Of a DNA stretch of 64,000 bases, positions 5,101 to 62,039 are shown one piece after another (position 1 is the stretch's first letter; each line of letters starts with the position of its first letter). Position numbers and translations under genes: made by a program. The DNA is from Streptacidiphilus sp. P02-A3a (lineage in GTDB: Bacteria > Actinomycetota > Actinomycetes > Streptomycetales > Streptomycetaceae), in the NCBI RefSeq assembly GCF_014084105.1, contig NZ_CP048289.1, forward strand, positions 4,411,922 to 4,475,921. The letters are read 5' to 3'. The notes under the pieces were generated by a model, which saw only the letters and a list, made by a program, of their open reading frames with translations, did not search any database and was not told the origin of the DNA.

Positions 5101-8100
5101 CGCCCGTCCGGACCTGCCGATCACCCCGGCCGACCGCGGCGGCGCCCTCGCCCTCTCACCCGCCCAGGAACGCCTGTGGGTGATCGAGCAGTTGGAGCCC
5201 GGCGGCAGCGCCTACAACGTGCCGCAGACCCTGATGCTGGACGGCGAACTCGACCGGGCGGCGCTGGAGCGGACGTTCACCGCGCTGGTCGCCCGGCACG
5301 AGGCGCTGCGCACCCGGATCGGGACGCACGGCGACGCGCCGGTGCAGGTCGTCGGCGAACCGTACCGGGTCACCGTGCCGCTGCTGCTGCCGGGCGGCGG
5401 GACCGGGGACACCGAGGCCGAGGCCGGGCGGATGGCGCTGGCCGAGCTCCAACGGCCGTTCGACCTGGTGCACGGCCCGCTGCTGCGCGCCGCGCTGATC
5501 CGGATCTCCGCCCGGCGGCACCTGCTGGTGGTGACCGTGCACCACCTGGTCACCGACGGCTGGTCCTACCTGGTGCTCACCCGCGAACTCGTGGAGCTGT
5601 ACGACGCGTTCACCACCGGCCGGGAACCGCAGCTGCCGCCCGCGCCGCTCCAGGCCGCCGACCACGCCGCCTGGCAGCGCGCCCTGGTCAGCGGCGGCCA
5701 CCTGGCCGAGCAGACCGCGTTCTGGACGGAGTACCTGGACGGCGCGCCCACCGCGCTGCAACTGCCGACCGACCGGCCGCGCCCGGCGGTCCAGCGCCAC
5801 GTCGGCCGACGGCACCGGATCCAGGTGCCCGCGGCCCTCACCCGGCAGCTGGCCGCGCTGAGCGCCGCGCGGGGCGCCACCCCGTTCGCTACCCTGCTGG
5901 CGCTGTTCGCCGCCGTGCTGCACGCCCACGCCGACACCCGGGACCTGCTGGTGGCGACCCCGGTGGCCGGACGCGACCGGGCCGAACTCGAAGGCATCGT
6001 CGGCTACCTGGTGAACACCGTGGTGGTGCGCGCCCGGCTCGACGGCGTCGGGACCGCCGCCGAACTGGTCGACCGGGTCCGCGAGAGCGCCCTCAAGGCG
6101 CTCAGCAACCCGGACGTGCCGTTCGACCAGGTCGTCCACCTCGCCGGGGCCGGGCGGCAGCTGGACCGCAACCCGCTGGCCCAGGTGCTGTTCACGCTGG
6201 AGAACCGGATCAACGGGGACGTGCGGCTGGCCGGTCTGGAGCTGTCGCCGGTCGACCTCGACCCGGGGATCGCCCAGTTCGACCTCGCCCTGCACCTCCA
6301 GGAGCGGCCGGACGACGGCCTGGACGGCTGGTTCGAGTACGACCAGGAGCTGTTCCAGCCGGACACCGTGGCCCGGCTCGCCGAGCACTTCCTGGAGGTG
6401 CTGCGGCGCGCGGTGGCCGATCCGGAGCAGAGCCTGGCCGCGCTGGTCCGGGTCCCGGACCAGGTCCGGCGGCTGCTCACCGAGGTGTGGAACACCGGTG
6501 CCGAGCGGCTGCCGGAGACGGACTCGCTGGTCGACCTGTTCGCCGCCGCGGTCGCCGCCGGACCGGACCGGCCCGCGGTGGTCGACGGCGGGCGCACCTG
6601 CCGCTACCGGGAGCTCGACCAGGCGTCGGACCGGATCGCCGCCCTGCTCACCGGCCACGGGACGGTCCCCGGCGACCGGGTCGGCGTGCTGCTGGAACGC
6701 GGCACGGACCTGATCGCCTCGGTGCTCGGCGTGCTCAAGACCGGCGCCGCGTACGTGCCGCTGGACCCCACGCACCCGGCCGAACGGCTCGGGCTGGCGG
6801 TCGCCGACAGCGGCGTCCGACTGGTGCTGACGCAGCGGTCCCTGGCCGACCGGCAGCCGCCCGGCGAGGTGGTCCCGCTGTTCGTGGACCGCCCCGGGGC
6901 CGACGCCCCGGCGGTCGGCTTCCGGCCCCGCCCGGTGGACCCGCTGAGCCCGGCGTACGTCATCTACACCTCCGGCTCGACCGGCCGCCCGAAGGGCGTC
7001 GAGGTGAGCCACCACAACGTGGTGCGGTTGCTGAGGTCGAGTCAGCGGCACTTCGGCTTCGGCCCCGACGACGTGTTCGCGCAGTTCTTCTCGCACGCCT
7101 TCGACGTCTCGGTGTGGGAGGTCTTCGGGGCGCTGTGCCACGGCGCGGCGCTGGTGGTGGTGCCGTACTGGACCAGCCGCGACCCGGACGCGGTGGTCCG
7201 GCTGCTGGCCGAGCGGCGGGTCACGGTGCTCAACCAGACCCCGTCGTCCTTCCAGTCGCTGATCGAGGCCGACGGCCGGTCCACGGCCGGTCCGTCGGCG
7301 CTGCGCGCGGTCGTGCTCTGCGGCGAGAACCTGGACGTCGGCATCCTCGGCCCGTGGTTCGACCGGCACGGCGACCAGCGGCCGGAGATCGTCAACATGT
7401 ACGGGATCACCGAGACCACGGTGCACACCACGTACCGCCGGATGACCGCCGCCGACGTCCGCCGCGAGGTCGGCACGCCCATCGGCACGGCCCTGCCCGA
7501 CCTGGTGATCCGGCTGCTGGACCAGGACGGCGAGCTGGTGCCGGTCGGCAGGGCGGCGGAGATCTGCGTCGGCGGTCCGGGCGTGGCCCTGGGGTACCTC
7601 AACCGGCCGGAGCTGACCGCCGGGCGCTTCGTCGCCGACCCGTTCGACCCCCGGCCCGGGGCCCGGCTGTACCGCTCGGGCGACCTGGCCCGCTACGGCG
7701 GCGACGGAGAGCTCTACTACCTCGGCCGGGCCGACCACCAGGTCCAGATCCGCGGCTACCGGGTCGAACCGGGCGAGGTGCAGACCGTGCTCGCCGGACA
7801 CCCCGGGCTGGCCGGGGCGGTGGTGGTCTCCACCACGGCGCCCGACGGCGGCACCGAACTCGTCGGCTACCCGGTGCCGCAGCCCGGTGCCGAGCCGCCG
7901 AGCACCGCCGAGCTGCGGGACTTCCTCGGCGGCCGGGTGCCGGAGTACATGGTGCCCACCCACCTGGTGCCGATCGCCGAGATCCCGCTGACGGTGAACG
8001 GCAAGGTCGACCGGGACGCGCTGCCCGCGCCGGTACGGCGGACGCCGACCTCGCGGGTCGCCGGGACCCCGGTGGAGAAGGAGGTCTGCCAGATCTGGTG

Positions 8101-32066: not shown

Positions 32067-32831
32067 TCAGGGGGTTGGCAGTCCACCCGGGCGAGCGGGG
32101 CGGCCGAAGCGCACCGGTACGCCGGGGGAGTAGAGCACGCTCGCGGGCGGCCCGACCGGCGCCGGCAGCCCGGCGGCTGCCACCAGCTCGTCGTCGCAGG
32201 CCAGGAGCTCGGCCCGGTGCAGGGGCCAGTGCGGGTGGGTGTTGGGCAGGTACATCGATCGGCCGAAGAAGGCGTTGTGCATGCCCCAGCGGGCGGTCAG
32301 GAAGTGTTCGAGCGCGGTGGGCTCCTCGATCCGCTCGCCGATTCGCACCGAGATCCGACAGCGCGCCCCGCGCGGGCCCGGCCAGCGTCGGCTGCTTGAG
32401 TAGCTGATGGTGTCCGCGTCGTGGTCGATGGCCATCCTGGCCCACATGTAGGGGAGCCGGAAGGCGCCGCGACCGAAGGCGACCGGCAGCAGCCGTGATG
32501 CCTCCAGGGAACGGAACACCACGCCGCGCCGACCGTACTGGTCCACCGAGTAGAGCCGCACGTTGGTCTCCGGGAACGTGCCGAGGTACGGGATGCCCGG
32601 CACCCTGAACCAGCCCACCCGGTACATCCGGAAGGCCACCAGGCCGATGTAGGTGAGCCCCTCGTGCGTGTCCGGCCTGGTTCCGGGCGGCAGCAGCGGT
32701 GCCACGTCCGCGGGGTCGGCGGCCCAGTGCAGGAACGAGAGGTGCAGCCAGGACTGGGTGAGCAGCGTGTCCGGAACCTGGCGCACCGGGTCGGGCATGA
32801 TCGGCTCAGCAGGGACAGGGGTGAGCGACAC
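32067..32831 (-). CDS. DUF2071/YqjF-like protein
   Basis: A protein of about 254 aa resembling the DUF2071 (YqjF) family, whose biochemical role is not established. Family-like phrases are LLTQSWLHLSFLHWAADPADVAPLLPPG near the N-terminus, YIGLVAFRMYRVGWFRVPGIPYLGTFPETNVRLY in the middle, and FLTARWGMHNAF near the C-terminus. No signal peptide or membrane segment is seen. The start is uncertain: GTG 32831 and ATG 32798 both keep the family domain intact, and neither has a strong ribosome site. It is divergent from the GH18 gene, and the shared upstream region holds the tandem TGGTCA operator, so the same regulator could affect both. Confidence 0.75.
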   Translation of the reverse strand: MSLTPVPAEPIMPDPVRQVPDTLLTQSWLHLSFLHWAADPADVAPLLPPGTRPDTHEGLTYIGLVAFRMYRVGWFRVPGIPYLGTFPETNVRLYSVDQYGRRGVVFRSLEASRLLPVAFGRGAFRLPYMWARMAIDHDADTISYSSSRRWPGPRGARCRISVRIGERIEEPTALEHFLTARWGMHNAFFGRSMYLPNTHPHWPLHRAELLACDDELVAAAGLPAPVGPPASVLYSPGVPVRFGRPARPGGLPTP

Positions 32832-32898: not shown

Positions 32899-32915
32899 TG
32901 ACCACTTGTTGACCA
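32899..32915 (-). promoter_or_regulatory. Tandem TGGTCA operator upstream of the GH18 gene
   Basis: Read on the minus strand this is TGGTCA-N5-TGGTCA, two direct half-sites 11 bp apart (plus strand TTGACCACTTG twice in a row). The flanks also match the site at 37205-37226: 19 of 22 positions are the same including the trailing TATT. A single inverted TGGTCA lies at 32939-32944. It sits 90 nt before the GH18 start codon and is a likely GntR/HutC binding site. Confidence 0.6.
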
Positions 32916-33004
32916 CTTGCCCAATCTGGGCCATCATCTGGTCAACATCAAGCGCACAACCGGCACCGGGAACGAACCACTGCACCTCCACGAAGGGATG
33001 GATC

Positions 33005-34093
33005 ATGTTTCGTCGCACCCTGTACACCGCCGTCGCCACCGCCTGCGCCGTCGCCCTCAGCACTGCCGCGAGCGCCGCGCCGGCCGCTGCCGCGCACCGG
33101 TCAGGCCGCCCCGGGGCGGTCACCGCCGGCGTCGAACTGGAGACCTGGATGTACCCCGGCTCCTCCGGCGACTCGCAGTGCAGCGCCCCGGCGGAGTACG
33201 CCGACAACCGGGTCATCAACGGCGCGCTCAAGCCCGAGTACTGGACTGTCACCGGCAAGGGCAAGGTCTCGCTGGAGACCACTGCCCAGGGCCTGTGCAA
33301 CGCCTACAGCCAGGCCAATGTGGCGGACCTCAAGGCACACTCCGCGGCTCAGTACCCGACCGTCTCCGGCATGACCACCGCTGACGTCCACGCCCTGGTG
33401 AGCAGCAGTGCCAACCGCGGTGCGGCGGTCTCCCAACTCACCTCGCTGGTGGTCGGCAACCAGCTCAGCGGCGTGGACGTCGACCTGGAGGACTACTGGT
33501 CCTGGAGCACCGCCGACTTCCACAACTACCTGACCTTCCTCGGCCAACTCGCCACCGCACTGCACGCCCAGGGCAAGCGGCTGCTGGTGGACGCTCCCGC
33601 CATGACCTCCGACGCCGCGTTCTACAACTACGCGGCCGTCAGCGCCGAGGGCGTGGACGAGCTGGAGATCATGGCCTACGACGAGGAGTACGACACCGCC
33701 CCCGGCGACACCTGCCTGCCGATCACCCCACTGGCCTGGCTGAGGCAGGTCACCCAGTACGCCCAGAGCCAGGTGCCGGACCCGTCCAAGCTGACCATCG
33801 GCCTGCCCTCGTACGGCATCAGCTCGCCCGACCCCTGTGACCTGAACAACATCACCGGCAACATCCAGTACAGCCAGATGGAGCAGAGCCCCGGCTTCTC
33901 CACCGACCCGGCGGTGATCGCCGCCCGGCGCGACCCCTCCTCCGGGGAGATCCGCTGGATCGACAACGGAACCCTGTACGACTACGTCGACAGCACCGCC
34001 CTGGACGACAAGCTCGCCGTGCTGACCTCGCTCGGCGTCACCCAGGTCTCCGTCTGGTCCCTGGGCGGCGGCAATCCCTGGTTCAGCGGCTGA
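33005..34093 (+). CDS. Secreted GH18 chitinase-type glycoside hydrolase
   Basis: A 362-aa exported protein. The N-terminus has a short basic start, a hydrophobic Ala-rich core and a cleavage zone near residue 28 (SAAPAAAAH). The glycoside hydrolase family 18 catalytic motif is SGVDVDLED, with the acid/base glutamate at residue 162. The flanking strands LEIMAYDEEYD and VSVWSLGGGNPWF match the barrel ends of the family. GH18 enzymes cleave beta-1,4-GlcNAc linkages in chitin; some members instead act on glycoprotein glycans (endo-beta-GlcNAcase) or only bind sugar. No carbohydrate-binding module is present. ATG 33005 is the only start that gives a clean signal peptide, with GAAGGG upstream. Tandem TGGTCA sites upstream and a strong stem-loop after the stop frame it as a single-gene transcript under repressor control. 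Confidence 0.88.
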   Translation: MFRRTLYTAVATACAVALSTAASAAPAAAAHRSGRPGAVTAGVELETWMYPGSSGDSQCSAPAEYADNRVINGALKPEYWTVTGKGKVSLETTAQGLCNAYSQANVADLKAHSAAQYPTVSGMTTADVHALVSSSANRGAAVSQLTSLVVGNQLSGVDVDLEDYWSWSTADFHNYLTFLGQLATALHAQGKRLLVDAPAMTSDAAFYNYAAVSAEGVDELEIMAYDEEYDTAPGDTCLPITPLAWLRQVTQYAQSQVPDPSKLTIGLPSYGISSPDPCDLNNITGNIQYSQMEQSPGFSTDPAVIAARRDPSSGEIRWIDNGTLYDYVDSTALDDKLAVLTSLGVTQVSVWSLGGGNPWFSG

Positions 34094-34099
34094 CCGCGC

Positions 34100-34128
34100 G
34101 GCGGTGGCGGCCCGTCGCCGCCACCGCC
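34100..34128 (+). terminator. Terminator hairpin of the GH18 gene
   Basis: Perfect 11-bp stem GGCGGTGGCGG / CCGCCACCGCC with a 7-nt loop, starting six nt after the GH18 stop. No T-run, as is common in this group. Confidence 0.65.
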
Positions 34129-34204
34129 GCCCCGGTCGCTCCCGGGCCGGGGTACCAGCCGGCCGGGCAGGCCGGGCATCCACCACGTAGCGAAAGACGG
34201 CACC

Positions 34205-34492
34205 TTGAGCGAGACACCCAGTCAGGCCATGGCACTGGCCGCCGCACTGCGAGAACTGCTGATCGGATCCCGCGCGAGCGACGGCGAGGGCCTCGCACCG
34301 GCGGTGGTGCTGGCCATGACCGATCCGGCCACCGGCACCGAGCACACCGTCGCCCTCCAACCGGAGTCCGCCGACTGGCTCACCAGACTGACCGTCGACT
34401 CCATCGCGAGCTGCCGGAACGCGCACAGCGGTGGGAACGGCCTGTGCGCACACTGCCGCGGCACCGGCCGGGCCGGCCTCGTCCAGCAGTAG
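34205..34492 (+). CDS. Small hypothetical protein with a CxxCxGxG motif
   Basis: A 95-aa protein of unknown function. The first 75 residues look like a small mixed helix/strand domain. The C-terminus has CRNAHSGGNGLCAHCRGTGRAG, in which CAHCRGTG matches the CxxCxGxG zinc-finger unit of DnaJ-type proteins; with the earlier cysteine and histidine it could bind one zinc. The start is uncertain: TTG 34205 begins the frame, while ATG 34229 is a more usual start. It lies between the GH18 terminator and the convergent SsgA-like gene. Codon use is normal for the genome, so it is likely real. Confidence 0.55.
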   Translation: MSETPSQAMALAAALRELLIGSRASDGEGLAPAVVLAMTDPATGTEHTVALQPESADWLTRLTVDSIASCRNAHSGGNGLCAHCRGTGRAGLVQQ

Positions 34493-34564
34493 CCGCCACG
34501 GCGTCGGAGGCCCTGAAGCTGTTCGGTCTACCTCGTGGTCGCGGATGTCATCGTGCTTCCTGCG

Positions 34565-34993
34565 TCAGGGCCCGCAGGGGGAGTCGGGTTGCTGGAGCAC
34601 CCCGGTCAGGGCGCGCCAGTTGATCGTGGGAACCTCGCTGCCCAGCGGGACCAGGGCGCGGGTGGCGTCCAGGAACTGGGCCAGGTCGCGGGTGGCCACC
34701 GTGAGCAGGGCGTTCTCCTGGCCGGAGTACAGCTCGATGGCGGTACTGTCACCGTGGGGGAAGATGCGGACGTCGCCGATGCCGACGGGGCCCAGCAGCC
34801 CGTCCGCGATCAGGTCCCGGCCGATGACCCACTGCGCGGGTCGGCCGTCCACGACCAGGGTGGCGTCGAAGGCCGCGGTGACCTGCAACGGATGACGGCG
34901 GTTGTAGGTGAGGGTCATGCGTGATTCCAGGATGCCCACGGGGCTGTGCAACTGGAAGCGGACGACCTGACTGACCTGACCCCTTGACCGCAT
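34565..34993 (-). CDS. SsgA/SsgB-like sporulation and cell-division protein
   Basis: A 142-aa protein resembling the SsgA-like (SALP) family, which is found only in morphologically complex actinomycetes. Family features are VTAAFD, then WVIGRDLIADGLLGPVGIGDVRIFP, then LYSGQENALLTVATRDLAQFLDATRALVPLGSE. SALPs steer septum placement, spore-wall synthesis and DNA segregation during sporulation; SsgB recruits FtsZ. Which member this is cannot be told without alignment. ATG 34993 was chosen as the first start consistent with the family; a GGTGGAG lies right against it, so the exact start is uncertain. It is alone, convergent with the small CxxC protein gene. Confidence 0.83.
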   Translation of the reverse strand: MRSRGQVSQVVRFQLHSPVGILESRMTLTYNRRHPLQVTAAFDATLVVDGRPAQWVIGRDLIADGLLGPVGIGDVRIFPHGDSTAIELYSGQENALLTVATRDLAQFLDATRALVPLGSEVPTINWRALTGVLQQPDSPCGP

Positions 34994-35190
34994 ACTCCAC
35001 CAATTCCGCTGCTGGGTGCCACCGTTGGTCGGTGCCGATGGGCCGCGCCTACCCGACGTCCACCCGCCCATGCGCGGCGGGAACCGAGCCGGGACCGTGC
35101 TCACCCGGACAGAGCAACAGGTCGGCCGGGCCGCCGGTCGGTCCCCTCGGCCGCCGCTGCCGTGGTCGACCCCAGGCCGGGAGCGCGGCG

Positions 35191-35748
35191 TCAGGACTTC
35201 TTGCGGTTCTTGGCGGCCGCCTGCTTGGCGGGCCTGGCGGCGGGTGCCTCGACGAGGGAGCCGCCCGCGGTCTCGTGGTGGGCCCGGATGAACCAGTGGA
35301 ACTGCTCCAGCGCGTGCAGGTGGCCGACGAGCATGTCCTCGCTCACCGGGTCGGCGGATCCGGTGGCCTTCGCCGCCTCGCGGTGGTCCGTGATGATGCC
35401 GGTGTAGACGTGGTCCAGGGCGACCAGGTGCTCCAGGGCGTCGGCGCGGCCCAGCTTGTAGTTGTCCCAGGTCCGCTCGCTGACCAGGGTCCCCGGCGTG
35501 CCGTCGGGGGAGCCGCCGAGGGTGGCGATGCGTTCGGCTGTCTCGTCCACCATCGCGCGCACGGCTTCGACCTGGGGGTCGATCATGGTGTGAACGGCGA
35601 TGAAGTGCGGCCCGACCACGTTCCAGTGCACGTGCTTGAGGGTCAGCGCGAGGTCGTTGAGCGCGTGCAGCCGCATCCGCAGCTGATCGATGACCTCGGC
35701 TGCCTGGTCGGTCGTCATGCCGGGAACGGTGTAACGGGGCGTGCTCAT
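35191..35748 (-). CDS. dps: Dps-family DNA-binding ferritin-like protein
   Basis: A 185-aa Dps protein. It forms a dodecamer that oxidises and stores iron using H2O2, and it protects DNA. The ferroxidase signature appears as HVHWNVVGPHFIAVHTMIDPQ, with further conserved segments DNYKLGRADALEHLVALDHVY and HLHALEQFHWFIRAH. The last 20 residues (ARPAKQAAAKNRKKS at the end) form a basic tail, the usual DNA-binding element in actinomycete Dps. ATG 35748 fits the family start. In streptomycetes dps genes respond to osmotic stress and development; no promoter motif could be assigned with confidence here. Confidence 0.93.
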   Translation of the reverse strand: MSTPRYTVPGMTTDQAAEVIDQLRMRLHALNDLALTLKHVHWNVVGPHFIAVHTMIDPQVEAVRAMVDETAERIATLGGSPDGTPGTLVSERTWDNYKLGRADALEHLVALDHVYTGIITDHREAAKATGSADPVSEDMLVGHLHALEQFHWFIRAHHETAGGSLVEAPAARPAKQAAAKNRKKS

Positions 35749-36251
35749 GAGGTGTCGCCTTTCTGTCGCGATCCGTGGCCCGGGTCCAGGTCCCAGGTTC
35801 AGGATTCGGGTCCGGGGGCCGGTCCTGGGCGCAGGCCCCGCGTGCGGGCACTGCGCGGACGCTTCCTCGCCTGCCCCGAATGGCGGGCGATATGCCTGGG
35901 GTCACCGGTTTCGTCCGAACCGTGGGCCGCGAACACGGGCCTGGCGGGCCGCCGCGGCCCGCGGGAACCGGGCGCGGAGGTGCTGGGTGAGGAAGAGGGC
36001 GGCGCGGTCCAGCGCCTGGTCGGCCTCGTCGAGGTACATGGCCCCGGTGTGTTCCAGGCCCTGGCGGGTGAGACCCGCGCCGGGCGGCTGGCCGAGCTGA
36101 CCACGGGTGTGCTCGACGCGCCCGCGATGGCGGCCGCCGCGCAGGCCTTCGCGCACCTGCGTGCCGCCCTGGAGCGCGACCAGGTCGGCACGCCCACCGG
36201 CTGACGCGCCGCCGCGCCCCGGCCGGAGGCCGACCCGGCCGGGGCGGTGCC
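35749..36251. other. Gap with a strand-ambiguous small ORF
   Basis: About 500 nt between dps and the GntR gene. On the plus strand, 35980-36204 (GTG start, 74 aa, containing VFQALAGETRAGRLAELTTGVLDAP) has strongly biased third positions. The overlapping minus frame ending at 35902 also reads plausibly (MYLDEADQALDRAALFLTQHL). Both cannot be trusted; at most one is a gene and I recognise neither. The plus candidate has a GCGGAG overlapping its start as the only ribosome-site hint. The remainder shows nothing identifiable. Confidence 0.3.
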
Positions 36252-37082
36252 TCAGGCCTGCTCGGTCCAGTAGGGGTCGAGCACCAGGGTGTCCGCCCCG
36301 GGCACGGTCGAGGCCGCTGACCAGGAGCCGCCGAGCACGCGCCCGTTGTCGGGCCGGGCGGCCAGCGAGAGCTGGGTCAGGATCCGGTAGCGGTCGCCCC
36401 GGTAGACGGAGTGGGTGAACTCCACGACGCGGCCGTCCGCGTCCCGGGTCTCGCGTTCGAACAGCAGCGCCGGGGTGTGCGGCGGCACGCCCAGCAGATC
36501 GGCCTCGGACTCGTCGACCACGGTCGGCTCGATGCTCTGGCGGGCGTCGGTGGGCAGGATGCCGAAGCGACGCCCCAGCAGCCGGTAGAAGGAGTCCGCC
36601 TCCAGGTCCCGCGCGGCCAGCCCGGGTACCAGGGCCTGCGGGACGTGCAGCGTCTCCAGGCACATGGGGTCGCCGTCGACCAGCCGCAGCCGGGTGATCC
36701 GCAGGACCGGCTCGCCCGGGGAGACCCGCAGTCGCCGACTGATCCGGGGCCCGGCCGCGACGACCCGGGAGTCCACCGTCCGGCTGGTCCAGTGGCCGTC
36801 CACCGCGCCGACGCCCAGGAGGCTGCGGGAGGCGGTCTGGGCGAGGTCCTGGGCCACCTTTGCCTTGGCGACGAAGACGCCCCGGCCGTGCTCGCGCACC
36901 AGCAGGCCGTCGCGCACCAGGTCGTCGACCACCGAGCGCAGCGTGGGCCGGGACACCCCCAGCTCCTCGCACAACTGCCGCTCGGCGGGGATCGACGCCC
37001 CGTCGCGGGTCTCCTCCACCAGGTCGAGCAGCCGCTCGCGGATCCGCTCCCGCTTCTCCCGACGGCTCTCATTGATGACCAT
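36252..37082 (-). CDS. GntR/HutC-family transcriptional regulator
   Basis: A 276-aa regulator. An N-terminal winged helix-turn-helix (residues 8-75; IPAERQLCEELGVSRPTLRSVVDDLVRDGLLVREHGRGVFVA) is followed by a UTRA effector domain (about 100-245; EPVLRITRLRLVDGDPMCLETLHVP, then FTHSVYRGDRYRILTQL). This plan is shared with DasR, NagR and HutC, which bind small sugars or sugar phosphates. Its start codon lies inside a tandem TGGTCA site (37076-37092), and a second such site lies at 37205-37226. The same arrangement sits upstream of the GH18 gene, so this protein is the best candidate to repress itself and GH18. The domain layout matches the second HutC-type regulator near 61.3-62.0 kb. Confidence 0.88.
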   Translation of the reverse strand: MVINESRREKRERIRERLLDLVEETRDGASIPAERQLCEELGVSRPTLRSVVDDLVRDGLLVREHGRGVFVAKAKVAQDLAQTASRSLLGVGAVDGHWTSRTVDSRVVAAGPRISRRLRVSPGEPVLRITRLRLVDGDPMCLETLHVPQALVPGLAARDLEADSFYRLLGRRFGILPTDARQSIEPTVVDESEADLLGVPPHTPALLFERETRDADGRVVEFTHSVYRGDRYRILTQLSLAARPDNGRVLGGSWSAASTVPGADTLVLDPYWTEQA

Positions 37083-37092
37083 TTGCTGACCA
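37076..37092 (-). promoter_or_regulatory. Tandem TGGTCA site overlapping the GntR start codon
   Basis: On the minus strand this reads TGGTCA-N5-TGGTCA, half-sites 11 bp apart, and covers the ATG of the GntR gene (37082-37080). A repressor bound here would block transcription or translation of its own gene. Confidence 0.5.
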
Positions 37093-37204
37093 GTCCTCTT
37101 CGGCTGTGGATCACATCCAGAGGGATGGTACCGCTGCGGCGGCCATGCTGGCTGCTTCCGGAGCTGACCAGGGCAGGCCAGCGGATGACTCGGGATGGCC
37201 GAAT

Positions 37205-37226
37205 TGGTCATGAAGTGGTCACTATT
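37205..37226 (+). promoter_or_regulatory. Tandem TGGTCA site between gntR and sdhB
   Basis: TGGTCA at 37205-37210 and 37216-37221, spaced 11 bp, followed by CTATT. It matches the GH18 upstream site at 19 of 22 positions. It lies about 125-145 nt upstream of the GntR start and immediately next to the sdhB terminator hairpin, consistent with an operator in the GntR promoter region. Confidence 0.6.
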
Positions 37227-61293: not shown

Positions 61294-62039
61294 TTAGCCG
61301 GAGGAGGCGTCGAAGCGGAGTTTGGAGGTGATGCGGTAGCGGTCGCCGCGGTAGACGGATTGGGCGTATTCGACGGTGCGGCCGGTGGTGTCTCGGGTGG
61401 TGCGTTCGACTTGGAGGATGGGGGAGTAGACGGGGACGTCCATGAGGTCGGCTTGTTGGGGGTTGGTGACGGAGGGTTCCAGGGTTTGGATGGCGTCCAT
61501 GACGATGATGTGGTGGCGCTCGCGTAGGAGTTGGTAGAAGTTGCCGCTTTCCATGTCTTGGGGGTCAGGCCGGGGACGAGGTCGGCGGGTAGTTCGAGTC
61601 GTTCGATGGCGATGGGTTCGTCGTCGACGTTGCGGACTCGGACGATTCGTAGGACGGGGGCGGTGGTGGCCAGGCCGAGTCGGGTGGCGCGGTGGGGGCC
61701 TGCGGGGGCGGTGGTGAATTGGACGACGCGGCTGGTCCAGTCGCCTTCGGCGGGGGGGACGGCGAGGGCGTTGGTGGTGGTGCCGGACATCTCCTGGGTG
61801 ACTTTGTGGGGGCTGGTGAAGGTGCCGCGGCCGTGTTGGCGTACCAGGAGGCCGCTGCGGGTCAGTTCTTCGACGGCGGCGCGGATGGTGGGGCGGGAGA
61901 CTTTGAGGCGGGCGGCGAGGTCGCGTTCGGGGGCCAGGCTGGTGCCGGGGCCTGATTTCTCGATCACTTCGAGGAGGTGTGCGCGTACGAGGTCTCGTTT
62001 GGTGGTGGCCCGGGTGGGGGTCTTGTCGCTGCTGGTCAC
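61294..62039 (-). pseudogene. GntR/HutC-family regulator with a frameshift
   Basis: Two frames join into a HutC-type regulator of about 248 aa. From GTG 62039 the first reads through a winged helix (LAPERDLAARLKVSRPTIRAAVEELTRSGLLVRQHGRGTFTSP) into the UTRA domain, as far as LPADLVPGLTP. The second starts with QDMESGNFYQLLRERHH and ends RGDRYRITSKLRFDASSG at 61294. They fit if the G5 run at 61560-61564 had six G. The start overlaps the GH20 stop as GTGA, so it is the last gene of that operon and the probable local regulator of amino-sugar use, like DasR or NagR relatives. It is either recently broken or an assembly error; the intact downstream frame favours error or recent loss. Confidence 0.78.

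Follow-up and report, generated by a model that had tools for sequence, protein, structure and literature searches.

The three copies of the direct repeat TGGTCA-N5-TGGTCA in this stretch of DNA from Streptacidiphilus, a soil actinobacterium (the window, 64,000 nucleotides in full), are, with good confidence, candidate operators for the GntR/HutC product of the gene at 36252-37082. This protein would be an autoregulated DasR/NagR-family repressor of its own gene, gntR, and of a gene for a secreted GH18 glycosidase. The regulon so outlined is small and open to experiment, and its DasR-family protein seemingly acts on a differently arranged operator. How paralogs of this kind avoid cross-talk is not obvious, because their half-sites look alike. 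Furthermore, regulator and target have been split by a rearrangement and both retain the operator, providing natural evidence for the regulatory link. The features are listed below.

32899..32915, minus strand: GH18 operator, TGGTCAACAAGTGGTCA, exact pattern match
32909..32937, plus strand: GH18 promoter-like element, TTGACC at 32909-32914, a 17-bp gap, CATCAT at 32932-32937
32939..32944, plus strand: extra half-site TGGTCA in opposite orientation, just 3' of the -10-like box
33005..34093, plus strand: secreted GH18 glycosidase, with an SGVDVDLE active-site motif and (by eye) a signal-peptide-like N terminus
34205..34492, plus strand: small ORF 3' of GH18; by eye, locus L083 has a similar ORF after its own GH18, at 7348-7659
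36252..37082, minus strand: gntR, GntR winged helix and UTRA domain (HutC subfamily), 276 aa
37076..37092, minus strand: operator O2, spanning the gntR start codon, TGGTCAGCAAATGGTCA, exact pattern match
37205..37221, plus strand: operator O1 in the gntR promoter, TGGTCATGAAGTGGTCA, exact pattern match

Operator sites and promoters

The exact pattern occurs in the window at 32899-32915 (minus), 37076-37092 (minus) and 37205-37221 (plus), just where an earlier note on this DNA had described it: ahead of GH18, over the start codon of gntR and in the gap between gntR and sdhB. The half-sites are direct repeats, 11 bp from start to start, in agreement with its claim of one helical turn, and the 19 of 22 identical positions that it gave for the GH18 site and the distal gntR site are again read from the sequence. 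Taken with its flanks, the GH18 operator is a perfect 11-bp tandem repeat, TTGACCACTTG standing twice on the plus strand. A whole-genome motif scan, proposed in the same note as a check, finds three exact matches in the 9,330,052 bases (9.33 Mb) of the genome (G000), all in the window and within one 4.3 kb segment, and one match to the reversed control pattern. By simple arithmetic, three random matches would fall inside 4.3 kb with a chance of about 6e-7. Matches to the pattern number 16 across the 14-genome genus, six at gntR or GH18 (the three in the window and one each in G005, G011 and G012) and ten elsewhere; its 12 fixed bases are by themselves not specific across the genus.

The gntR ATG lies at 37082-37080 on the minus strand, so that the middle site, O2, spans the start codon. 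The window shares this second operator copy with G005, G011 and G012, the closest three relatives within Streptacidiphilus, in which the copy reads TGGTAAGCNNATGGTCA. The distal site, O1, sits in the gap that separates gntR from the sdhB 3' end (37256). Both genes run on the same strand with sdhB upstream, and since sdhB has ended by O1, O1 is the gntR promoter site. The position given by the earlier note thus holds, and any role in an sdhB promoter falls: sdhB is ruled out as a target, O1 being 3' of it and belonging to the promoter of the gene that follows. The centres of O1 and O2 are, by arithmetic, ~129 bp apart in the window, ~126 bp in L081, ~73 bp in L082 and ~118 bp in L083; as this phasing is not strict, no claim of looping between the two sites is made.

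We infer a GH18 promoter at 32909..32937, with a similar layout in aligned relatives. The inner repeat of the GH18 operator overlaps its -35 box. The extra half-site at 32939..32944 stands 29 bp from the start of this inner repeat. Among the 15 promoters of gntR orthologs, four have a TGGNNA in opposite orientation at 29 bp and ten have one at 30 bp.

Conservation in relatives

All 15 orthologous gntR promoters carry two direct TGGTNA half-sites 11 bp apart, for an expectation of 0.0 such repeats by chance (two-base-block shuffling, 20 rounds). A conserved block of this kind could be a promoter only, its TTGACC -35 box duplicated by chance and read by no specific regulator, and the 17-18 bp that separate TTGACC from a CATCAT-like -10 box fit this idea. 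It is nonetheless highly improbable: both repeats and their spacing are retained in 15/15 promoters, the copy at the start codon (window, G005, G011, G012) stands where no -35 box is expected, and the pattern is rare in its own genome, with three exact matches.

Among the 14 genomes of the genus, the operator TGGTCANNAAGTGGTCA, gntR (at least 79%) and GH18 (at least 76%) occur in the same four. Searched in 394 family genomes, TGGTCANNAAGTGGTCA yields 14 matches, and its reversed control two. Ten of the 14 lie at a gntR and GH18; for the other four (L179-L182), neither gene is found in the flanking 1.5 kb. Operator, gntR and GH18 are found together in Streptacidiphilus, Streptomyces, Actinacidiphila and Catenulispora. 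Two loci with GH18 nearby and a gntR of 61% (L084) and 59% (L106) possess no 11-bp repeat. GH18 lies directly downstream of gntR in 13/13 readable loci outside the window, and genes for an ABC importer and a kinase run divergently from the gntR promoter in 10/14 relatives; no importer or kinase is located beside gntR in the present genome. In G005, G011 and G012, the operator is present before gntR only, and GH18 would therefore depend there on read-through from gntR.

Although gntR and GH18 are apart in the window, the GH18 promoter still resembles the operon promoter of relatives. Outside the operator, the likeness scores 17-19 for L081, L082, L083, L095, L104 and L105, with 0/2000 shuffles as high. 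It is lower elsewhere (15 for L096; 13 for L103; 11 for L098 and L102; 9 for L097, L099, L100 and L101), and reaches 7 against the window's own gntR promoter, a score matched by 528/2000 shuffles. The likeness is uneven, which counts against the repressor reading.

The regulator and the enzyme

The regulator is, by its sequence, a DasR/NagR-family (GntR/HutC) protein. Both of its domains score over cut-off (PF00392, 54.1 bits; PF07702, 147.6 bits), placing it in the HutC subfamily and confirming the earlier assignment. Related regulators abound, with 9 to 24 matches to it in each of the 14 genomes. It shares 35% identity with the genome's own DasR and is not a DasR ortholog: in a protein tree, the 15 gntR orthologs form a separate clade (support 99/98), outside the DasR group of the genus (100/100), to which L064, the genome's own DasR, belongs.

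Residues R35, R45 and G66 are found at the spacing of NagR R38, R48 and G69. On the ligand side, 14 residues of DasR have been named as contacting GlcN-6-P or GlcNAc-6-P (PMC4918961). Eight of them (both arginines, Ser175, Tyr177, Glu154, Arg221, Glu232 and Tyr238) are identical in the window protein, where R131, R133, E143, S164, Y166, R210, E221 and Y227 align with them and are invariant in five compared sequences. Leu176, Glu193 and Val234 differ, and Ser97, Tyr98 and Thr99 are not safely alignable. The inducer is probably a phosphorylated amino sugar. All 15 orthologs have a C-terminal tail of the GSWS..VPGADTL..DPYW type; L084 and L106 resemble it in part, and none of the other listed tails shows it. 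As the cause of tandem binding, this tail is a weakened candidate, since it is missing from the L174-L177 group, whose operator is the same.

The enzyme matches the GH18 profile (PF00704, 48.4 bits; cut-off 29.6). The usual GH18 active-site motif is DxxDxDxE; here, S replaces the first D, and the catalytic D-x-E is present, with D158, D160 and E162 invariant in 13 sequences. A fold model of medium confidence (mean pLDDT 67) served for family placement only. The nearest folds of the enzyme include a chitinase from Chromobacterium as well as SleL and YdhD, which are spore-related, so that peptidoglycan-type substrates come into consideration; the substrate may be chitin or of peptidoglycan type.

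Proposed mechanism

Each half-site (TGGTCA, often GTGGTCA) would probably be read by one winged-helix domain, through the same two arginines and wing glycine as in NagR. Given the tandem arrangement, with a period close to one turn of the helix, two repressor dimers most likely bind next to each other on a single face of the DNA and cover the -35 box. Repression would extend to gntR itself, through O1 with assistance from O2 over the start codon, as well as to GH18. GH18 would cut an extracellular GlcNAc-containing polymer, the products of which would be imported and phosphorylated; a phosphorylated amino sugar would then occupy the UTRA domain, whereupon the repressor would leave the DNA.

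Activators also use sites upstream of or overlapping the -35 box, and GntR might in that manner activate GH18 and the importer. Such a role is very unlikely: the inner repeat lies on the -35 box itself and another copy over the start codon, which fits repression, and published accounts present both NagR and DasR as repressors. As to the small autoregulated regulon distinct from DasR that the earlier note had predicted, comparative genomics supports the GntR/GH18 autoregulation and the non-dre operator, and binding stands as a prediction.

Comparison with known systems

DasR of Streptomyces (GntR/HutC; PDB 4zs8, 9i0v) resembles the window GntR in domain build, subfamily, TGGTC half-site and 8/14 ligand residues; chitinases are among its targets, and dasR adjoins the ABC importer dasABC as gntR adjoins one in relatives (title cited in PMC6097792). 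The operators differ, that of DasR being a 16-bp palindrome, A(G/C)TGGTCTAGACCA(G/C)T, and that of the window an 11-bp direct repeat. DasR targets are global; those of the window GntR are local as far as visible. Neither window promoter holds a dre within two mismatches, the direct repeat being found instead.

Could DasR, the chitin master regulator of the genome, read these sites rather than the adjacent GntR? It controls Streptomyces chitinases and shares the TGGTC half-site (PMC4398421 and PMC6097792), and the genome encodes one at G000:8191541 (L064; 431 bits to S. coelicolor DasR), adjoining a sugar-binding-protein gene. However, the best dre match has 3/12 mismatches in the GH18 promoter, and the gntR promoter has none within four. 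Of 11 DasR-group promoters of the genus, five carry AGGTCTAGACCA-like palindromes (at most three mismatches) and none the 11-bp direct repeat. This repeat tracks the window-type gntR (4/14 genomes), whereas a 34-37% DasR-like match, for which L064 alone was compared with DasR itself (solved chain), exists in all 14. Recognition by DasR is thus unlikely, and the adjacent GntR is the preferred reader.

NagR/YvoA of Bacillus subtilis has in common with the window GntR the R38, R48 and G69 equivalents and a (G)TGG half-site. Its GTGG half-sites are inverted and six nucleotides apart according to PMC4333415, those of the window direct and 11 bp from start to start. NagQ and FarR are HutC regulators with direct-repeat operators; the repeats of NagQ, which governs GlcNAc utilisation, are TGGTATT and differ from TGGTCA (PMC4494728). 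Direct-repeat geometry therefore has precedent in the HutC subfamily, the window system being set beside NagQ by operator descriptions.

NanR of E. coli belongs to the FadR subfamily. It is a GntR-type repressor, three dimers of which bind tandem GGTATA repeats cooperatively (PMC8012715); it is like the window GntR in tandem arrangement only, subfamily and half-site being different. In Streptomyces, chitinase promoters also contain short direct repeats, in this respect like the window sites, that act as repressor sites (Delic 1992; Ni and Westpheling 1997, as cited in PMC6097792); the same review reports that DasR binds at chitinase genes by way of dre elements.

Further targets and operator geometry

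With up to one mismatch allowed, the genome holds 37 matches, the three exact ones included, and the control 29, so weaker matches are mostly background; no further target in this genome is recognised above it. Context was viewed for 27 of the 34 inexact sites. Twelve of these were called coding, and L021 proved coding on a second look; because the simple gene caller had overlooked this, its "intergenic" labels are unreliable. The genes shown next to the remaining viewed sites, judged by eye and not by profile search, include none that looks like a chitin or amino-sugar gene. The longer pattern TGGTCANNAAGTGGTCA with three mismatches adds one place in G000, L080, identical to the L022 site and called coding. 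Importer binding protein has matches of 33% or less elsewhere in G000. GH4 has two paralogs of 65-68% in the genome, neither near an exact site, one of them within ~4 kb of the one-mismatch site L021, which lies inside a permease-like reading frame. The names GH4, BadF kinase and DasR were given by eye, then tested by further comparison.

Tentatively, amino-sugar repressor paralogs with a TGGT half-site and the same DNA-contact residues might have diverged by clade in operator geometry, half-site rearrangement rather than new base recognition insulating them from one another within one cell. The geometries in question are inverted for DasR (dre), a dre-like palindrome and/or everted pairs for a 55% clade, and direct with an 11-bp period for the clade of the window.

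Genes and Operator Sites

The features concerned are as follows:

32899–32915 (−), GH18 operator
33005–34093 (+), GH18 protein, a putative secreted glycosidase whose start resembles a signal peptide by eye and which carries the motif SGVDVDLE
34568–34990 and 35191–35748 (−), SsgA-like gene and ferritin-like gene (the latter presumably Dps-type), between GH18 and gntR
36252–37082 (−), gntR, regulator with a GntR winged helix and a UTRA domain
37076–37092 (−), operator across the gntR start
37205–37221 (+), operator in the gntR promoter

The closest solved structures to the regulator are DasR and NagR/YvoA. Those closest to the GH18 protein are a Chromobacterium chitinase, a Pseudomonas class V chitinase, a Desulfitobacterium putative chitinase, and proteins of the YdhD and SleL type.

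The three TGGTCA-N5-TGGTCA sites reported in an earlier note are all present. The genome-wide scan that it proposed returns three exact matches in 9.33 Mb, all of them in the window, versus one for the reversed pattern used as a control. Between the distal gntR site and that of GH18, 19 of 22 positions are identical, as read from the sequence and as already counted. This distal site had been placed between gntR and sdhB; it exists, but belongs to the gntR promoter, since sdhB ends before it and lies on the same strand as gntR. With up to one mismatch, the genome contains 37 matches versus 29 for the control. The 12 fixed bases by themselves are unspecific across species; the 14 genomes of the genus hold 16 exact matches, of which 6 lie at gntR or GH18 and the other 10 do not.

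Conservation in Relatives

The regulator gene (at least 79%), the GH18 gene (at least 76%), and the operator TGGTCANNAAGTGGTCA occur in the same four of the 14 genus genomes. In the other three of these four, gntR and GH18 are adjacent on one strand, with TGGTCAATAAGTGGTCA upstream of gntR. Two further genomes have more distant genes without the operator TGGTCANNAAGTGGTCA: G001, with gntR (61%) and GH18 (45%), and G008, with GH18 (50%). Across 394 family genomes, TGGTCANNAAGTGGTCA has 14 matches in 13 genomes, versus 2 for the reversed control. Ten are found at gntR and GH18 (five in the genus and five outside, loci L174–L178), and the remaining four (L179–L182) have neither gene in their 1.5 kb flanks. 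Orthologs of 72–76% are found in Streptomyces, Actinacidiphila, and Catenulispora among the best 80 of 456 matches of a named-genome search.

TGGTNA direct repeats spaced at exactly 11 bp are present in all 15 ortholog promoters, including that of the window, versus 0.0 in shuffled promoters. In nine of them (L095–L097, L099–L102, L104, L105), TGGTAA replaces TGGTCA in one half-site, so not every promoter keeps the strict TGGTCA pair. With the looser TGGNNA, everted half-sites are observed as minor patterns at 7 and 18 bp (9/15 each) and at 30 bp (10/15). The site set is real and conserved in relatives, and the earlier note is borne out on the operator and on its link to GH18, with chitin as a candidate substrate. 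The C-terminal tail of the regulator (GSWS..VPGADTL..DPYW, window 36255–36359, (−)) is also conserved in 15 of 15 orthologs, with a partial likeness in L084 and L106 and none among the listed tails of other clades.

GH18 lies directly behind gntR in 13 of 13 readable loci outside the window (L097 was left out, its contig ending too early). In 10 of the 14 loci outside the window, the gntR promoter is shared by divergent genes encoding a permease, a kinase, and the binding protein of an importer; this importer and kinase, found in most relatives, were not visible to the earlier note. In L082, Pfam assigns the divergent cluster to a solute-binding protein, two permeases, a family 4 glycosidase (GH4, looked for in this locus alone of the ten), and a BadF-type kinase, which resembles the N-acetylglucosamine kinase NagK well under the curated cut-off. 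In L099, the divergent gene beside the operator is by eye the start of a GH4 in place of the binding protein, which suggests a shorter version of the regulon.

Regulator Clades and Operator Geometry

A 46-protein tree gives two separate clades, one of the 15 orthologs (99/98) and one of the genus DasR group (100/100), with related regulators of the "55% clade" (loci L107–L173) outside both. The DasR-group member of the same genome (L064) scores 431 bits against Streptomyces coelicolor DasR and is 35% identical to the regulator; a 55% clade member reaches only 130 bits against DasR. Operator geometry differs between these clades: 15/15 orthologs, 8/67 members of the 55% clade, and 0/11 DasR-group promoters have the strict 11-bp direct repeat. 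In the 55% clade, the commonest TGGTNA pair is everted at an 8-bp offset (TNACCA-N2-TGGTNA, 21/67), and an exact dre-like palindrome, TGGCATAGACCA, lies upstream of gntR in 38/67. The regulators of L174–L177 (~53%) adjoin GH18 with the same direct repeat.

According to a survey of GntR motifs, most HutC sites keep the GT-AC spacing of a palindrome, FarR and NagQ being listed as direct-repeat exceptions (PMC4494728). The DasR operator, dre, is a 16-bp palindrome (PMC4398421), from which the present operator is distinct, as had been proposed. A review cites work of 1992 and 1997 on direct repeats in the chitinase promoters of Streptomyces, and has DasR bind at chitinase genes by way of dre elements (PMC6097792). 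Among the matches listed from the open-licence literature, no paper deals with this regulator or with TGGTCA-N5-TGGTCA, an absence that argues weakly for novelty.

The Separated GH18 Gene: REARRANGEMENT

GH18 has lost its place behind gntR in the window, where it lies ~2.2 kb away in reversed orientation. It is trailed by a small ORF, and a similar ORF is found by eye behind GH18 in L083. The 42 bp after the GH18 operator can be aligned to the operon promoters of L081, L082, L083, L095, L104, and L105, so GH18 probably has a promoter copied from that of the ancestral operon. These alignments score 17–19, a range reached by 0 of 2000 shuffles; among 18,201 other window segments, the highest score is 15. 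Scores are 15 for L096, 13 for L103, 11 for L098 and L102, 9 for L097, L099, L100, and L101, and 7 for the window's own gntR promoter. A DUF2071 gene (32067–32798, (−)) is divergent from GH18, its presumed start ~100 bp from the operator, and may be a further target of that operator.

Proposed Mechanism

The mechanism as a whole, from operator reading to ligand, is one that we infer. NagR recognises GTGG through Arg38, Arg48, and a glycine of the wing; in dre, its half-sites stand in inverted orientation with six nucleotides between them (PMC4333415). The regulator has Arg35, Arg45, and Gly66, invariant in five aligned sequences, at the NagR spacing, so it probably reads each half-site in the same way, with the arrangement alone being different. 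Read from the sequence, the GH18 promoter has −35-like and −10-like boxes, TTGACC and CATCAT, with 17 bp between them. Since the inner repeat overlaps the −35-like box, its occupancy would occlude this box and repress transcription. The preferred geometry would be two dimers side by side on the tandem half-sites, for which NanR offers a precedent of tandem dimers on tandem repeats (PMC8012715). Eight of the 14 ligand-contact residues named for DasR (PMC4918961), including both phosphate-binding arginines, are identical in the regulator, which suggests a phosphorylated amino sugar as ligand; the kinase encoded in the relatives' cluster fits this reading.

A second GntR/UTRA gene (window 61306–62003, (−)) matches at 44–49% identity as two pieces in different frames, and looks frameshifted through mutation or assembly error. 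It adjoins a reading frame that is GH20-like by eye.
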